Source: an uncultured Actinomycetes bacterium
GTDB taxonomy: Bacteria; Actinomycetota; Acidimicrobiia; Acidimicrobiales; RAAP-2
Length of the DNA: 64,000 nucleotides
NCBI GenBank assembly: GCA_903924205.1
Contig: CAIYAP010000001.1
Coordinates: forward strand, 1 to 64,000
Reading direction: 5' to 3'
Made by a program: the position numbers and the translations under genes. The notes beneath the pieces are model-generated. The model made no database searches. It saw nothing but the letters and a program-made list of their open reading frames with translations, and was not told the origin of the DNA. Each line of letters begins with the position of its first letter. Position 1 is the first letter of the stretch. Shown here one piece after another: positions 27,893 through 34,445 of this stretch.

Positions 27893-28351
27893 GTGCAAAT
27901 TCCCGCCAAAGCCGACTACGCGATTCGGTCGCTGCTCACCTTGGCGGACTGTCAGGGCGCCATGAGTGCGGAGCGCTTGGCGCGCGAACAGAATCTCCCG
28001 CCGAAATTTCTGGGCGCGATCATGAGCGACCTTCGCCGCGAAGAAATCGTTCGCTCACGGCGCGGTGCCGAAGGAGGCTTCGAGCTCAATCGACCGGCCA
28101 ATCAGATAACCGTGGCGGACGTGCTGCGCGCCCTGTCGGGCCCCATGGCCGGAGTGCGCGGACAGCGTCCCGAAACCCTCGAATACGAGGGACTGGCTCA
28201 GCCCCTGCGTGACGTGTGGGTGGCAGTGCGCGCCAGTTTGCGCGACGTGCTCGAGCATGTCACCATCGCCGATATCGCCACGAACAATTTGCCGGAAGCC
28301 GTGACGCGTTACACGTCAGATCCCGACGCGTGGACCACCCACACCTCGTGA
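27893..28351 (+). CDS. Rrf2-family transcriptional regulator without Fe-S cysteines
   Basis: 152 aa. Starts MQIPAKADYAIRSLLTLA, with winged-helix LAREQNLPPKFLGAIMSDLRREEIVRSRRGAEGGFEL and VADVLRALSG, all typical of Rrf2. The only cysteine is C20; the three-cysteine cluster motif of IscR/NsrR-type sensors is missing, so it either senses something else or uses other ligands (as RsrR-like members do). CAGAAT lies 6 nt before the GTG. Its stop overlaps the rnhA start by 4 nt. Confidence 0.87.
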   Translation: MQIPAKADYAIRSLLTLADCQGAMSAERLAREQNLPPKFLGAIMSDLRREEIVRSRRGAEGGFELNRPANQITVADVLRALSGPMAGVRGQRPETLEYEGLAQPLRDVWVAVRASLRDVLEHVTIADIATNNLPEAVTRYTSDPDAWTTHTS

Positions 28352-28797
28352 GAACCGTCATCTACACCGACGGCTCGTGTCGCGGCAATCCGGGACCGGG
28401 CGGCTGGGCCTGGGCGGTGGGCGAGCACCTGTACGCCTCGGGCGTGGACAGTCCGACAACCAATCAGCGCATGGAGCTCACCGCCGCACTCGAAGCTGTT
28501 CGCGCCTTTCCCAACGGTCCGCTCGAGATTGTCAGTGATTCCACCTACGTGGTGAAGTGTTTCAACGACAAGTGGCACGCCGGCTGGCGCCGCCGCGGGT
28601 GGAAGAACTCGCAGGGCCAAGCGGTGGCGAATCGCGACCTGTGGGAGGCCATCTTCGCGGTGACGATTGATTGTGGCCGTGACGTGACCTTTCGGTGGGT
28701 GAAGGGTCATTCGGGGGAGCCCATGAACGAGTTCGTCGACACCCTGGCGACCTTGGCCGCCGATGAGGGCCGTGGTCGATCCACGCCGACTCAGTAG
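28348..28797 (+). CDS. rnhA: Ribonuclease HI
   Basis: 149 aa from GTG 28348, overlapping the Rrf2 stop. Catalytic carboxylates in YTDGSCRGNPGPGGW (D8), RMELTAALEA (E), VSDSTYVV (D) and FVDTLA (D), and the conserved histidine in WVKGHSGE. Degrades the RNA strand of RNA-DNA hybrids. Normal length for the family. Confidence 0.93.
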   Translation: MRTVIYTDGSCRGNPGPGGWAWAVGEHLYASGVDSPTTNQRMELTAALEAVRAFPNGPLEIVSDSTYVVKCFNDKWHAGWRRRGWKNSQGQAVANRDLWEAIFAVTIDCGRDVTFRWVKGHSGEPMNEFVDTLATLAADEGRGRSTPTQ

Positions 28798-28817: not shown

Positions 28818-28854
28818 AGGAAGCGCGCAAAGCGCCCCCGTGGAAAGGATGCTC

Positions 28855-30273
28855 GTGGCCCCCGAATCCCAGAACTTTGATGTTGTCGTCATCGGTGGAG
28901 GACCTGGCGGTTACGCCACCGCCCTGTACGGAGCGGCCGCCGGCCTCAATATCGCCCTCGTCGAACGCGACACGGTGGGCGGTACCTGCCTCCAGCGTGG
29001 CTGCATTCCCGCGAAGGAGTTTCTCGAGACCGCTCACGTGAAGCGCACCATCGAAGCGGGCGCCGAATTTGGACTCTCGACCTCGAACCTCAGCATTGAT
29101 TTCTCCGTCTCTCAAGCCCGAAAGAACGACGTCGTCAGCACCTTGACGACGGGTCTGACCGGTCTGCTCAAGGGCCGCAAGGTCACCGTCTTTTCCGGCA
29201 CCGCGCAACTGCAGGCCGGCAACCAGGTCGCCATTCTCGATGGTGCCGATGCGGGCACCACACTGAGCGGCGCCAACGTCGTGCTGGCCGCGGGCTCGGT
29301 GCCGCGCACCATTCCCCACTTTGAGATCGATGGCACCACCATCGTGACATCGGATGAATTCCTGTCGCTCACCTCCTTGCCCGCCACCGCCGCGGTCATC
29401 GGCGGCGGCGCAATTGGCTGCGAATTCGCGTCCATGCTGGTCGACATGGGCTCCACCGTCACCGTGCTGGAGGGACTCCCCAACATTTTGAACGGCTGTG
29501 ACACCGACGTAGTCGCCGTCGCTCAGCGCGCCTTCAAGAAGCGCGGCATGAACATCCGCACCGGCGTCACTATCACCGGCCACACCCCGAAGAAGTCGGG
29601 TGGCACCACGGTGCACATCGACGGCGGCGACGACGTTGAAGTTGACATGGTGATCGTGTCGGTGGGTCGTCGCGCCCGCACGGAAGGCCTCGTCGCTGAC
29701 GGCGTGGGCGTCGTGATCGACGAGCGTGGTTTTGTGGTGGCCGACCGCAGCATGAAGACGGCCGTCGCCAACGTGTACGCCGTGGGCGACATCGTCGCCG
29801 GTACCCCGCAGCTGGCCCACGTGGCCTTTGCGGAAGCGGTCGTCACCGTCAAGACCATCCTCGGCGAACCGGTGCAGCCGGTGGACTACACCCGCGTCCC
29901 CTGGGCGATCTACTCGAACCCGGAAGTGGCTTTCGTCGGACTGACGGAAGCAGCCGCTAAGGAAAAGGGCATCCCCGTCGTCGTGAAGAAGGACCCCTTC
30001 GCCGGTAACGGTCGCGCCCGCATCATTGGGGAAACTGATGGTGTCGTCAAGATCATCGCGGAGAAGCGCCCCGACGGCAGTGCCGGACAGCTCCTCGGCG
30101 TGCACATGGCGGGCCCGTGGGTCACCGAACAGCTCGGTGCCGGCTACTACGCCGTGAACTGGGAGGCCACGGCCGAGGAGGCCGCCGCGCTGATTCAGCC
30201 GCACCCCAGTCTGTCGGAAGTCTTTGGCGAAACCTTGCTCGCCCTAGCCGGACGAGGCATCCACGTTGGCTGA
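28855..30273 (+). CDS. lpd: Dihydrolipoyl dehydrogenase (E3)
   Basis: 472 aa. GTG 28855 chosen because GGAAAGG ends 6 nt before it; GTG 28840 and ATG 28849 are in frame but badly placed. FAD motif VVVIGGGPGGYATALYGA, redox disulfide GGTCLQRGCIPAK, NAD motif AAVIGGGAIGCEFASM, FAD contact VYAVGDIV and the dimer-interface HPSLSEVFGE with catalytic His-Glu. Reoxidises dihydrolipoyl groups of 2-oxo acid dehydrogenase complexes. First gene of lpd-E2-lipBA; its stop overlaps the E2 start by 8 nt. Confidence 0.94.
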   Translation: MAPESQNFDVVVIGGGPGGYATALYGAAAGLNIALVERDTVGGTCLQRGCIPAKEFLETAHVKRTIEAGAEFGLSTSNLSIDFSVSQARKNDVVSTLTTGLTGLLKGRKVTVFSGTAQLQAGNQVAILDGADAGTTLSGANVVLAAGSVPRTIPHFEIDGTTIVTSDEFLSLTSLPATAAVIGGGAIGCEFASMLVDMGSTVTVLEGLPNILNGCDTDVVAVAQRAFKKRGMNIRTGVTITGHTPKKSGGTTVHIDGGDDVEVDMVIVSVGRRARTEGLVADGVGVVIDERGFVVADRSMKTAVANVYAVGDIVAGTPQLAHVAFAEAVVTVKTILGEPVQPVDYTRVPWAIYSNPEVAFVGLTEAAAKEKGIPVVVKKDPFAGNGRARIIGETDGVVKIIAEKRPDGSAGQLLGVHMAGPWVTEQLGAGYYAVNWEATAEEAAALIQPHPSLSEVFGETLLALAGRGIHVG

Positions 30274-31405
30274 CGTCACCCTTCCCTCGCTCGGTGAATC
30301 TGTCACTGAAGGCATTGTCACTCGCTGGCTGAAGAACGTCGGTGACGTCGTGCTTCGCGACGAACCCTTGCTCGAAATCTCGACCGACAAGGTCGACTCC
30401 GAAATGCCGTCACCGGCTGCGGGCGTGTTGCTCAAGATCGTTGTGCCCGAAGGTGACACGGCGGCCGTCGGTGCCGTCGTGGCCGTCATCGGCGAACTCG
30501 ACGGTGACGCACTGGCTGCCGCGCAAGCCGCGCCCACGGCGCCGGCCACGGCACCCATCGCCACCTCGGCGCCTGACGCTGGCGCCACCGCCGGTCTGGT
30601 CACGTCGCCGGTCGTTCGCCGGATTTTGGTCGACGGCCAGGTAGACCCTCGCTCGGTGACGGGCACTGGCCCCAACGGTTCGATCACCCGCCGCGATGCC
30701 GAGCGCGCCGTGGCGCAAGGTCCGTCCGAGGAGATTCGCGTTCCCTTTACCGCGGGCGTGAAGCGCATGGCCGAGCACATGGTCCAAACCGTGCGCACCA
30801 GCCCCGTGGGCTTCGTTGCGGCCGAACTCGACGCGTCCGTCCTCGCCTCGCTGCCCGCAACGACGTCAGATGGCATCACGCTTCGACCCGAAGTTGTGGT
30901 GGCGGTAGCCGCCATCCGCGCACTCGCCGACTTTGACACGTTGAACGCTGAAGTTACTGGTGACGAACTTGTCATCCGCCGCAGCATCAATGTCGGCATC
31001 ATGAAGAGTCTCCACCCTGACGGCATGCTCGTGCCGGTCGTGCACGCCGCGGGCAAACTGTCCGTGCGCGCCTTCGCGCGTTGCTTGGCGGATCTCGACG
31101 AACGCGTCGCCACGCGCCAGTTGATGACCGATGACCTCATTGGTGGCTCCATCTCCTTCCTGCTCGCCCCGTCGATCCACACCACGTATGCGGTGCCCCT
31201 GCTCATTCAGCCTCAGGTGGCCGCGTTGGCCATCGGTGCGGTGCGCGAGGTTCCGGTCGTTCGAGACGGCGCACTGGTCGCTGGTCGCACGGTGACGGTG
31301 GGGCTGAGCTTTGACCATCGCGTCATTGAGCCCGTGCGCGCCGCCGCCTTCGTGGATCGCGTCGGCGCTGTGCTGAGCGAACTCGACATCGCCGCGGAGT
31401 GCTGA
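30266..31405 (+). CDS. 2-Oxo acid dehydrogenase E2 with one lipoyl domain and altered active site
   Basis: 379 aa from a TTG (MADVTLPSLGESVTEG). One lipoyl domain (1-78, lysine K42 in TDKVDSEMP), an Ala/Pro linker, a peripheral-subunit-binding domain (about 112-150, VTSPVVRRILVDG...GSITRRDAERAV) and a catalytic domain. Actinobacterial SucB/DlaT usually have two or three lipoyl domains and about 550-600 aa. The catalytic H-x-x-x-D-G motif is changed: DHRVIEP, with H351 kept, Asp replaced by E355 and Gly by P356. The residue region 195-205 (SLPATTSDG) is also short. Adjacent lpd and lipBA genes fit lipoylation and reoxidation. Substrate specificity is uncertain. Confidence 0.82.
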   Translation: MADVTLPSLGESVTEGIVTRWLKNVGDVVLRDEPLLEISTDKVDSEMPSPAAGVLLKIVVPEGDTAAVGAVVAVIGELDGDALAAAQAAPTAPATAPIATSAPDAGATAGLVTSPVVRRILVDGQVDPRSVTGTGPNGSITRRDAERAVAQGPSEEIRVPFTAGVKRMAEHMVQTVRTSPVGFVAAELDASVLASLPATTSDGITLRPEVVVAVAAIRALADFDTLNAEVTGDELVIRRSINVGIMKSLHPDGMLVPVVHAAGKLSVRAFARCLADLDERVATRQLMTDDLIGGSISFLLAPSIHTTYAVPLLIQPQVAALAIGAVREVPVVRDGALVAGRTVTVGLSFDHRVIEPVRAAAFVDRVGAVLSELDIAAEC

Positions 31406-31406
31406 C

Positions 31407-33032
31407 GTGGTTCGCCTTCGGTACCTGGGACGAATCACGTTTCCGGAGGCGAACGATCTGCAACATGCCTTGCTGGATGCGGTTGACGACTACGTCTTAG
31501 TTTTCGAACACCCCGCCACATACACCCGTGGGGTTCGCACGAAGGACGAGAATCTCCTTGTCCCTCCGGGCGAACTGCCGGGCCCACTTTTTGATGCCGA
31601 TCGTGGGGGTGACTTCACCTATCACGGACCGGGCCAAGTCGTGGCCTGGGCGATTGCGACCGTGGCGGACGACCCCTCGGCAGGACGACTGCACGTCGAG
31701 AAACTCGAAAATGCGGTGTCGGCCGTCATCCGCCAGTTCGATACCGAGGGACGTTTGGGTCTTGTTGGCACCAAGGGTGAGTTTCCCGGCATTTGGGCTC
31801 ACCTCGATACTCATCCGGTCAAAATCGGTCAAATTGGAGTGCGCACTGAACGAGACCGTCAGGGTCGCCGCCGCACCCTGCACGGTATTGCGCTGAATAT
31901 CAATCCGGATCTCAGCCACTTCGCGGCGATCGTGCCCTGCGGCATTCCCGAGTTTCCCGTGGGGTCACTGACCTCACTCGGCCTCGATGTTGACGCCGTC
32001 GAGTTCACGCGTGAGGTGGGAATCGCCATCGCGTCGTCATTGGGAGACGACGTCACGGTGCAGTCGGTGGACCTTCAGGGAGCAACGGGTGGTACTGAGC
32101 GCCCGCTGATTCGTCGACTTCGCGCCGCGGGCGTCGTGCCCGAAGATGGTCTTGCCATCAGCCAGCGCAAGCCCGAGTGGCTGCGCATCCCCGCCACTAT
32201 GGGGGAGAACTACGCCAGTCTTCGCAAGATGACGGAGGACCTACGCCTCGTCACGGTGTGCGAAGAAGCCGGGTGCCCCAACATCTTCGAGTGCTGGAAT
32301 GACGGCACTGCCACGTTCATGGTCAATGGAGAACGCTGCACTCGTGCCTGTGGCTTCTGCTTGGTCGATACTCGTAAGCCCCTCGCGCTTGACCCCACCG
32401 AGCCTGAACGCGTGGCCGAAGCGGTAGTGCGACTTAATTTGCAGCACGCCGTGATTACCTGCGTCGCTCGCGACGATTTGAGCGACGGGGGAGCGGGTGC
32501 CATTGGCGACACCATCCGCGCGATTCGCGCTCGTCGACCCGAAACTCAAATTGAGGTCCTCGTCAGTGATTGCAAGGGTGATCACGCTAGTCAGCGATTA
32601 ATTTTCGACGCCCGGCCGGACGTGATGAACCACAACATGGAGACGGTGGCGCGTCTGCAACGAGCTGTTCGGCCGAGCGCCGGTTACGCCCGGTCCCTCA
32701 CCATTTTGGCCCGCTCGAAGGCCGACGGACTGGTCACAAAGTCAGGATTCATGGTCGGTCTCGGTGAGACCATGAATGAAGTTCGCGAACTGCTCATCGA
32801 CATGCGCGCCGCGGGTGTCGATATTGCCACCGTGGGCCAGTACCTTCGACCGACTAACCGTCATCTACCGGTCGCTCGCTGGTGGACGCCGGAAGAATTC
32901 GCCGACATCGAAGCCTTCGGGATGTCCCTGGGTTTCGCCCACGTGCAAAGTTCGCCGCTCACGCGGTCGAGCTATCACGCCAAAGGTGCCGCCAACGCCG
33001 CCCAAGCCGTCACCTTGACCGGTCGTCGTTAG
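31407..33032 (+). CDS. lipB-lipA: Octanoyltransferase-lipoyl synthase fusion, LipB-LipA
   Basis: 541 aa in one uninterrupted frame. Residues 1-225 are LipB: RGGDFTYHGPGQVV, the lysine of KIGQIGVR (K139) and nucleophile C178 (VPCGIPE). Residues about 252-541 are LipA: auxiliary-cluster cysteines C285, C290, C296 (CEEAGCPNIFEC), radical-SAM cysteines C311, C315, C318 (CTRACGFC), MNHNMETV, and the C-terminal RSSYHA serine ligand. It would transfer octanoate from ACP to the lipoyl lysine and insert two sulphurs. Usually these are two genes. Linker about 226-251. Starts at GTG 1 nt after the E2 stop. LipA's auxiliary cluster needs Fe-S supply. Confidence 0.94.
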   Translation: MVRLRYLGRITFPEANDLQHALLDAVDDYVLVFEHPATYTRGVRTKDENLLVPPGELPGPLFDADRGGDFTYHGPGQVVAWAIATVADDPSAGRLHVEKLENAVSAVIRQFDTEGRLGLVGTKGEFPGIWAHLDTHPVKIGQIGVRTERDRQGRRRTLHGIALNINPDLSHFAAIVPCGIPEFPVGSLTSLGLDVDAVEFTREVGIAIASSLGDDVTVQSVDLQGATGGTERPLIRRLRAAGVVPEDGLAISQRKPEWLRIPATMGENYASLRKMTEDLRLVTVCEEAGCPNIFECWNDGTATFMVNGERCTRACGFCLVDTRKPLALDPTEPERVAEAVVRLNLQHAVITCVARDDLSDGGAGAIGDTIRAIRARRPETQIEVLVSDCKGDHASQRLIFDARPDVMNHNMETVARLQRAVRPSAGYARSLTILARSKADGLVTKSGFMVGLGETMNEVRELLIDMRAAGVDIATVGQYLRPTNRHLPVARWWTPEEFADIEAFGMSLGFAHVQSSPLTRSSYHAKGAANAAQAVTLTGRR

Positions 33033-33036
33033 CCCC

Positions 33037-33042
33037 TACGAT
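33037..33042 (+). promoter_or_regulatory. -10 element TACGAT, 7 nt before the gene at 33050
   Basis: TACGAT overlaps an upstream in-frame ATG (33041), which argues for ATG 33050 as the start; leaderless type. Confidence 0.45.
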
Positions 33043-33049
33043 GACCGCC

Positions 33050-33763
33050 ATGCGTCGTTACTTTCCTCACCTCGCCGTCGCGTTCATTTTGGTGATGGGC
33101 GCCGTGGTGGCTCTCGTCGTAACGTCCTCGTCGAACCCTGGCCCCTCCACGGTCTCATCGGTCCCGGTCTTGCCCCTCACCGGCAGCACGGTAACTCTGG
33201 ATGTCAAGGGCTGCGGTCACAGTTCACCGACCTTCACGACCTTTACGACACAGGTTGCCGCCTCCGAGGTTGGCCACGTCGTGGCATTCCAACTACCCAA
33301 GACCACGGCCGTGGTACTCGCCCCGGTGGGCTACCGCTGCAAGGGCGGCGCGGCCCCCATCAAGGCTCTGGCGGCCGCGGGGCAAGTGAACATCTCGGGC
33401 CCCTCGAGCGCCGATCCGTTGACGGAACAGGTCATTTATGCCGTGGTGGCCGACCACGTCAAAATTCCCTTCCCTTACAGCTGTATGTGGCCCGACATTA
33501 AGTCGAGCAACTGCGACCAGTGGACCCATTTGCCGGGATCGTCGTTCACCGCATGGGGCAAGAGCCACGCCACCTTCATTGCAGGAGATGCGTCAAATTT
33601 GGCGTGGGGATCATTCGGTATGGGTGTCAATCAGGGCAGCAATATGCTCTATCAGTACGTCTGTGTCCTGAAAACGGCCACGTCGCCGAAATACCCCACC
33701 TCGGCGGGCGCACTGAGTTGTCGGAATAATCCCGACATCTTGGCGTCGCAGCTCGGAAACTAA
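33050..33763 (+). CDS. Exported protein of unknown function, paralogue A
   Basis: 237 aa. N-terminal hydrophobic segment about 6-26 (signal peptide or anchor, no lipobox), then a Ser/Thr/Pro linker and a beta-rich domain. It shares with the next protein the blocks TVTLDVKGCG, ASEVGHVVAFQLP, CMWPDIKSSNC, WGKSHATF and SFGMGV, and several cysteines likely to form disulfides outside the cell. No known family recognised. Confidence 0.7.
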   Translation: MRRYFPHLAVAFILVMGAVVALVVTSSSNPGPSTVSSVPVLPLTGSTVTLDVKGCGHSSPTFTTFTTQVAASEVGHVVAFQLPKTTAVVLAPVGYRCKGGAAPIKALAAAGQVNISGPSSADPLTEQVIYAVVADHVKIPFPYSCMWPDIKSSNCDQWTHLPGSSFTAWGKSHATFIAGDASNLAWGSFGMGVNQGSNMLYQYVCVLKTATSPKYPTSAGALSCRNNPDILASQLGN

Positions 33764-33785
33764 CTACCACCTGACGAAGGACATC

Positions 33786-34445
33786 ATGCGCCGACTTATT
33801 CCACACCTTCTGCTCGCCACCTTGACCGTGGGGGCCGCCGCCGCCGCCGTACTGCCGTCGGTGATACGAAACGCCGCCTTGACCACGGTGACGCTCGACG
33901 TCAAGCAGTGTGGCCCTAAGTCTTATCCCATCACGAACAAAACTTTGACCGTGCGCGTACCGTCCAGCGAAGTGGGCCATATCACCGCCTACGGTTTGCC
34001 CTACACGTCGCAAGCCATTATTTCGCCCTCGTCGGCGGCCTGTGCCGTCAACCTCTATCCGCTGTCCGCGTTGACCGACGGTGCCGTCATGCAGACGCAG
34101 ACCGCCACAGGGGAGTCCGTGCAAGGACTCACCTACGTGGTCGTGAAGGCAGGCGGGACCATCCCGTCACGCCTCGCTTGTTACTGGCCGTCGATCCAGT
34201 CCGATGCCTGCGCCGCCACTTTGACCTCCCTCATCCCCCACATCAGCGAATGGGGCGCCTCGCACGCGCTCTACGCGGGATCGAAGGGCCACGCGTTTGC
34301 CAAGTTGCAGTTCGGTGCCGGCAAGATCGCTGGCGCTCACGTCACCTACCTCGCTCAGTGTGAGGAGAATACGGCACCGGTGGGCGGCAATCAGGCCTGT
34401 GAGACCAATCTTGACGTGTTGGCGCAGCAGTTCGTTAACAGTTAA
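33786..34445 (+). CDS. Exported protein of unknown function, paralogue B
   Basis: 219 aa. ATG has GAAGGA about 5 nt upstream, so it is translated from the same mRNA as paralogue A, 22 nt away. N-terminal hydrophobic segment about 5-25, then TVTLDVKQCG, SSEVGHITAYGLP, CYWPSIQSDAC, WGASHALY and QFGAGKIAG, matching paralogue A block by block at low overall identity. This looks like an old tandem duplication. Conserved cysteines and an export signal suggest a secreted, disulfide-bonded protein. Overlaps the end of convergent metH by 4 nt. Confidence 0.7.
   Translation: MRRLIPHLLLATLTVGAAAAAVLPSVIRNAALTTVTLDVKQCGPKSYPITNKTLTVRVPSSEVGHITAYGLPYTSQAIISPSSAACAVNLYPLSALTDGAVMQTQTATGESVQGLTYVVVKAGGTIPSRLACYWPSIQSDACAATLTSLIPHISEWGASHALYAGSKGHAFAKLQFGAGKIAGAHVTYLAQCEENTAPVGGNQACETNLDVLAQQFVNS

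Follow-up and report, generated by a model that had tools for sequence, protein, structure and literature searches.

LipBA, a fusion of LipB and LipA in one open frame, is the rule in the class Acidimicrobiia

The window analysed here, a stretch of DNA of 64,000 nucleotides, contains at 31407-33032 on the forward strand a single open frame of 541 amino acids with a GTG start (open reading frame list and translation). From N to C terminus this frame encodes LipB (octanoyltransferase), a linker and LipA (lipoyl synthase). Fusion of the two is the rule in the whole class Acidimicrobiia. We consider it highly probable that LipBA is a bifunctional lipoyl-assembly enzyme, with one likely origin near the base of Acidimicrobiia and a separate origin in the unrelated Desulfocapsa family. 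The parts of the frame, and the genes before it, are as follows (coordinates are those of the window).

27893..28351, + strand: Rrf2-family regulator, first gene of a same-strand run (PF02082)
28345..28797, + strand: rnhA, ribonuclease HI, start approximate (PF00075)
28840..30273, + strand: lpd, dihydrolipoyl dehydrogenase, E3 (TIGR01350, 466.2 bits, cut-off 408.8)
30266..31405, + strand: E2, dihydrolipoyl acyltransferase with one lipoyl domain (PF00364, PF02817, PF00198)
31407..32009, + strand: LipB half of LipBA, residues 1-201 (PF21948, TIGR00214, fold match 1w66)
32010..32165, + strand: linker, residues 202-253 (helix predicted at 233-240)
32166..33029, + strand: LipA half of LipBA, residues 254-541 (TIGR00510, PF04055, PF16881, fold match 5exk)
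33030..33032, + strand: stop codon of lipBA

Pfam matches to the window protein are LplA-B_cat (PF21948) at residues 17-201, LIAS_N at 253-290 and Radical_SAM at 309-463. Two NCBIfam models are matched above their curated cut-offs: TIGR00214 (lipB; cut-off 83.55) with 92.2 bits and TIGR00510 (lipA; cut-off 310.25) with 332.2 bits. The 541-residue frame, the Pfam domains and both curated cut-offs thus bear out the preliminary description of this DNA, which had read LipB and LipA as fused in one frame. The protein scores under the cut-offs of the longer PRK-derived LipB models of NCBIfam, and its LipB half is diverged (92 bits to TIGR00214 vs 142 to 165 bits in three other fusions); this divergence counts against the bifunctional reading. 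Every residue that had been named as catalytic is found at its position: K139 (codon 31821-31823) and C178 (codon 31938-31940) in LipB; C285/C290/C296, C311/C315/C318 and the motif RSS (520-522) in LipA. The two cysteine triads presumably hold two iron-sulfur clusters, and the C-terminal RSS we take to be a further feature of LipA. The cysteine and lysine of LipB form a catalytic dyad, according to the part of PMC9307952 at hand.

An alignment of 98 distinct fused proteins (111 minus 13 duplicates, with L099 from Desulfocapsa included, and with L174 and L177 being pieces of one genome) shows how firmly these residues are held. K139, C178 and C285 are kept in 98/98, the other five cysteines of LipA in all 97 proteins that reach them, and RSS in all 93 that cover that stretch. 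Mean pairwise identity is 51% for LipB and 63% for LipA, and 24% and 33% for the two parts of the linker. What stands of the earlier claim of a working bifunctional enzyme is the conserved fusion and the complete sets of catalytic residues; the activities themselves are predictions. Judged by sequence, the bifunctionality of LipBA is well supported, but no activity of any LipB-LipA fusion is reported in the literature found, and this too counts against it.

The genome to which the window belongs (1.66 Mb, 7 contigs) contains a single LplA-B_cat match and a single lipA match that exceeds the cut-off, both in lipBA; a second lipA match, at 17.6 bits, lies far under it. The expectation that no separate lipA or lipB would be present agrees with the search: none was found in this genome, which is 97.48% complete. 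A single base separates the stop codon of E2 from the GTG start of lipBA, and the order lpd, E2, lipBA given in the preliminary description is correct (28840-30273, 30266-31405, 31407-33032). The longer order Rrf2, rnhA, lpd, E2, lipBA is kept in 6/6 loci of the same genus and in one locus of the same family (L198); no Rrf2 match was found in four others of the 12 loci examined for gene order. At a further locus of the same family (L199:6416-8423, genome G104) lipBA lies directly after lpd, with no E2 match between them. The Rrf2 regulator (27893-28351), which by eye contains one cysteine only, could make lipoate synthesis respond to cysteine or iron-sulfur status. Downstream, at 32882-34445, are two adjacent small proteins, alike by eye, with signal-like N termini.

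The adjacent E2 is a presumed substrate of LipBA; against the NCBIfam models for particular 2-oxoacid complexes all its scores are under cut-off. Two further candidate lipoyl acceptors are encoded elsewhere: contig C2 carries a second E2, located after an E1-beta-like gene, and contig C7 carries GcvH. The remaining Biotin_lipoyl match is a biotin carboxylase. With three candidate acceptors in the genome, LipBA presumably serves all three – adjacent E2, second E2 and GcvH – and so more than its neighbor. In two loci of other Actinomycetota (L069 and L108) Lpd, E2, LipB and LipA also lie together, the lip genes being separate, and an E2 match is present within ~2.1 kb upstream in 13 of 18 loci outside the class. 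Because the lpd-E2-lipB-lipA order also occurs in actinobacteria with separate genes, it is likely to be older than the fusion. The suggestion that placement next to the substrate is special to the fused gene is therefore not upheld: the same cluster exists in L069 and L108, and the other acceptors are elsewhere in the genome.

Matches were found in 59 of the 61 genomes of relatives, and in all 59 LipB runs in frame into LipA, several (among them G003, G022, G037 and G057) being cut at contig ends. Nine relatives have two matches in one frame: eight were read by base and G044 was assigned from the shared 613-residue frame. The class sample comprised 197 genomes that are at least 90% complete, 189 of them with a match, and LipB continues in frame into LipA in 187 of these 189. 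For 145 of the 187 (hand count: 126 + 5 + 14) one match begins in the LipB half and continues into LipA; 12 of these 145 contain a stop, and in none of the 12, all of which were read, does it fall between the halves. The loci of 42 of the 187 were also read, and each is one open frame. Included in the 187 are G099, G147 and G125, cut at contig ends; G198, broken within LipA and spread over two contigs; and G149, with a stop near the end of LipA. Counting matches with stops inside as separate genes was rejected, since the stop lies at or near the end of LipA in the class loci read; counting two matches per genome as two genes was rejected, since both lie in one open frame.

The remaining two of the 189, G152 and G208, have their halves on different contigs. 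In G152 the LipA contig opens with an in-frame stretch resembling the C terminus of LipB. Another contig of that assembly (L241, G152:C255; assembly contamination 6%) carries a LipB that ends without LipA, and G152 may be an exception to the rule. In G208 an in-frame PurD-like N-terminal piece (GARS_N) precedes LipA at a contig end (L240, G208:C113); this join is probably an assembly chimera. No lipA over cut-off was found in the 10 genomes without a match (8 of the class sample, plus G004 and G046), which means either that lipoate synthesis was lost or that the assemblies have gaps. G138 and G004, for which neither lipA nor LipBA was found, belong to the genus of the window itself, and one of them is 96% complete. 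Six fused genomes (G065, G069, G107, G108, G132 and G202) have one further match each beyond those listed, and an extra separate copy is possible in them. The best named matching loci are largely MAGs of Acidimicrobiia or Acidimicrobiaceae, and in the LipA tree the window LipA groups with that of Acidimicrobiaceae bacterium Jr-7aug17-95; we infer that the sampled class is Acidimicrobiia, Actinomycetota.

That two genes are the norm elsewhere is confirmed for the loci read in other Actinomycetota. The phylum sample comprised 296 genomes, 243 of them with a match, and outside the class the matches listed are to the LipA half, plus G393 and G496, where both halves are spanned with stops. Thirty-eight loci were read (18, and 20 taken from the phylum sample for the length of their open frames). 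Of these, 34 contain both genes, which are separate in every case (34/34), and the other four have no LipB nearby. A contig scan, which required one of two peptide patterns and may thus miss further fusions, gave at least 17 fused loci among its best 80: 16 Acidimicrobiia-like and one from Desulfocapsa sp. MC-05 (L099:4995-6503), the sole match in that genome. The Desulfocapsa sp. MC-05 fusion lies downstream of two genes for the glycine cleavage P-protein, and here too a lipoate-dependent system is adjacent.

Matches are present in 35 of 60 genomes of the Desulfocapsa family, and eight of the 60 are fused (L099:4995-6503, L243-L248 and L250), seven at full length and one (G514) cut by its contig; G543 is probably fused as well. 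At L249 (G536) lipB and lipA share a frame and one stop is all that divides the halves, a state that is either an intermediate or a reversal; at L251 (G545) the two genes are separate.

In a tree of LipA domains, ten Desulfocapsa-family rows, fused and separate together, fall on one side of a branch with support of 99.6. With these ten rows the hypothesis that the fusions of Acidimicrobiia and Desulfocapsa go back to one origin is rejected (p-AU 0.0086, from quick trees and one model); with one Desulfocapsa row it had stood (p-AU 0.286). As the joint grouping of all fused rows is rejected, we conclude from these trees that the fusion arose separately in Acidimicrobiia and in the Desulfocapsa family. 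A single origin within Acidimicrobiia is present in the best tree, and the SH-aLRT of the class branch varies with the rows chosen: 88, 68 and 32.6 in three trees. The branch with 88 holds 68 rows, including L091, whose contig begins inside the gene and which was left out of the two later trees; for the tree with 32.6 the grouped table gives 99, ungrouped rows not being counted. The first tree omits duplicates, contig-cut rows and the majority of both the alphaproteobacterial and the same-genus rows. Because support changes with the rows chosen, a single origin within Acidimicrobiia is only likely.

Between alignment positions 200 and 254 the linker stretch of the 98 fusions ranges from 24 (L099) to 183 residues (L162), the shortest within Acidimicrobiia being 38. 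Its content of order-promoting residues is 0.259, vs 0.345 and 0.323 in the halves, and its codon-position GC resembles that of coding DNA. A pattern L..AGV occurs shortly N-terminal of LipA in 54 of 94 fusions; in the structure model of the window protein it sits in a predicted helix. The linker of L162 (G136) includes a charged, repeat-rich stretch.

AlphaFold models were made from 26-row alignments for the window protein (pLDDT 90.2, pTM 0.90, with pLDDT <50 at residues 226-228) and for L081, which has a longer linker (pTM 0.88, with pLDDT <50 over 220-255). The two pTM values point to a confident relative placement and suggest that the halves dock, since a clearly lower pTM would be expected if their relative orientation were free. 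Among the best 50 Foldseek matches of the window model are M. tuberculosis LipB (1w66, rank 19, TMt 0.82) and M. tuberculosis LipA (5exk_G, TMt 0.93, 47% identity). Sequence matches in the PDB include the same two enzymes (1w66 for LipB, 5exi for LipA), one half each, and none of the nine matching PDB sequences spans both halves.

In the mechanism that we propose, C178 of the LipB half, with K139 helping, would accept octanoyl from octanoyl-ACP and transfer it to a lipoyl-domain lysine. Two sulfurs would then be inserted into the bound octanoyl chain by the LipA half, which belongs to the radical SAM enzymes and carries two iron-sulfur clusters. That LipB and then LipA act on the lipoyl lysine is knowledge of the families (PMC9307952 and PMC12246082, in the sections at hand). 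The fusion would have originated at the base of Acidimicrobiia, or close to it, when a cluster already ordered lpd-E2-lipB-lipA lost the stop between lipB and lipA. The tether would fix a 1:1 ratio and keep the LipA site close to the domain just octanoylated: as both sites act on the same side chain, it should raise the chance that LipA meets a fresh octanoyl domain. We infer both activities, their physical coupling and a benefit of fusion.

How much the tether does beyond this can be read in more than one way. LipBA might be a compact unit with channelling, the octanoylated domain reaching the LipA site from that of LipB without diffusing freely. Such a docked hand-off is conceivable, though we hold it only tentatively: the pTM values of the two models (0.90 and 0.88) would fit docked halves, and the LipB-then-LipA order was fused in two separate groups, but linkers of 24-183 residues with identities of 24% and 33% fit a simple tether, and with or without channelling the lipoyl domain should have to dissociate from LipB and then bind LipA. 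That selection for hand-off fixed a docked LipBA through Acidimicrobiia, and drew a second fusion in the Desulfocapsa family, we regard as less likely than not. Alternatively, fusion may have secured no more than the stoichiometry and co-expression of enzymes already clustered, with no hand-off and near neutrality, a reading to which we give serious weight while stopping short of favoring it. Separate lipB and lipA adjoin in other Actinomycetota; the linkers are variable and poorly conserved, that of L162 being repeat-rich and 183 residues long; and in G536 (L249) the fusion is one substitution away, since the genes share a frame with one stop between them. Against this, no return to separate genes is demonstrated in the 189 matched class genomes, G152 being a possible exception, and as no reversal is demonstrated the fusion seems to have persisted longer than a neutral join suggests.

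LipBA could also resolve into two ordinary enzymes, were the chain cut or were translation to begin inside the linker as well and yield free LipA. In-frame start codons occur inside 91 of 94 linkers, 47 of them with an SD-like 4-mer upstream (raw counts), and the window linker has a GTG at 32058 preceded by GGAG; such codons are, however, expected by chance in GC-rich coding DNA, and ATG is present in just 52 of 94 linkers, so that we judge this improbable. An assembly or sequencing error joining two frames, for which the preliminary description had pointed to an indel near the linker, can be set aside with near certainty: the same in-frame fusion recurs in many independent genomes, the single-contig G042 and G038 among them. 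Our preferred reading is that of a bifunctional LipBA. Retention of the fusion through nearly the whole class, and its having been made twice, suggest that LipB and LipA profit from proximity. Being one chain, LipBA could allow hand-off to be caught by structural methods, and a natural comparison exists in the Desulfocapsa family, where fused and separate forms occur together.

Lipoate assembly is known as the work of separate enzymes that meet a moving lipoyl domain. No report of a LipB-LipA fusion was found in the open-access literature, and no LipB-LipA fusion model was matched in the NCBIfam release searched; automatic naming may consequently record one half only. The proviso that such fusions might already be catalogued in this lineage is thus right in that the fusion is common throughout the class, but no family model or open-access paper was found. 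The portions at hand of PMC3543383, PMC3322544, PMC3917532, PMC3904984 and PMC12246082 do not describe it. PMC10332631, a large survey of lipoate assembly, discusses ligase fusions; the text of it at hand has no passage on a LipB-LipA fusion and no match for Acidimicrob. The fused ligases Lpl(AB) and Lpl(BA) (PMC10332631, same excerpts) are likewise fusions within lipoate assembly, but there two parts of one ligase are joined, whereas LipBA joins two successive enzymes. NF053790 (LplA_LipA_fuse, lipoate--protein ligase/lipoyl synthase) also joins an attachment enzyme to lipoyl synthase, but its N-terminal half is by name a ligase, not LipB. The window LipA half aligns to its positions 331-604 and the LipB half is unaligned; membership was rejected at 345.7 bits vs a cut-off of 800. 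Set beside LipB (TIGR00214; 1w66), the N-terminal half has the same fold and the same cysteine and lysine positions and passes the curated cut-off, but runs on into a longer chain instead of ending at its own stop. Set beside LipA (TIGR00510; 5exi/5exj/5exk), the C-terminal half has the same fold, both cysteine triads and the C-terminal RSS, and again passes the cut-off, but is preceded by LipB and a linker. LipBA thus consists of ordinary enzymes in an unusual and durable arrangement: the fusion is interesting, though not categorically new.
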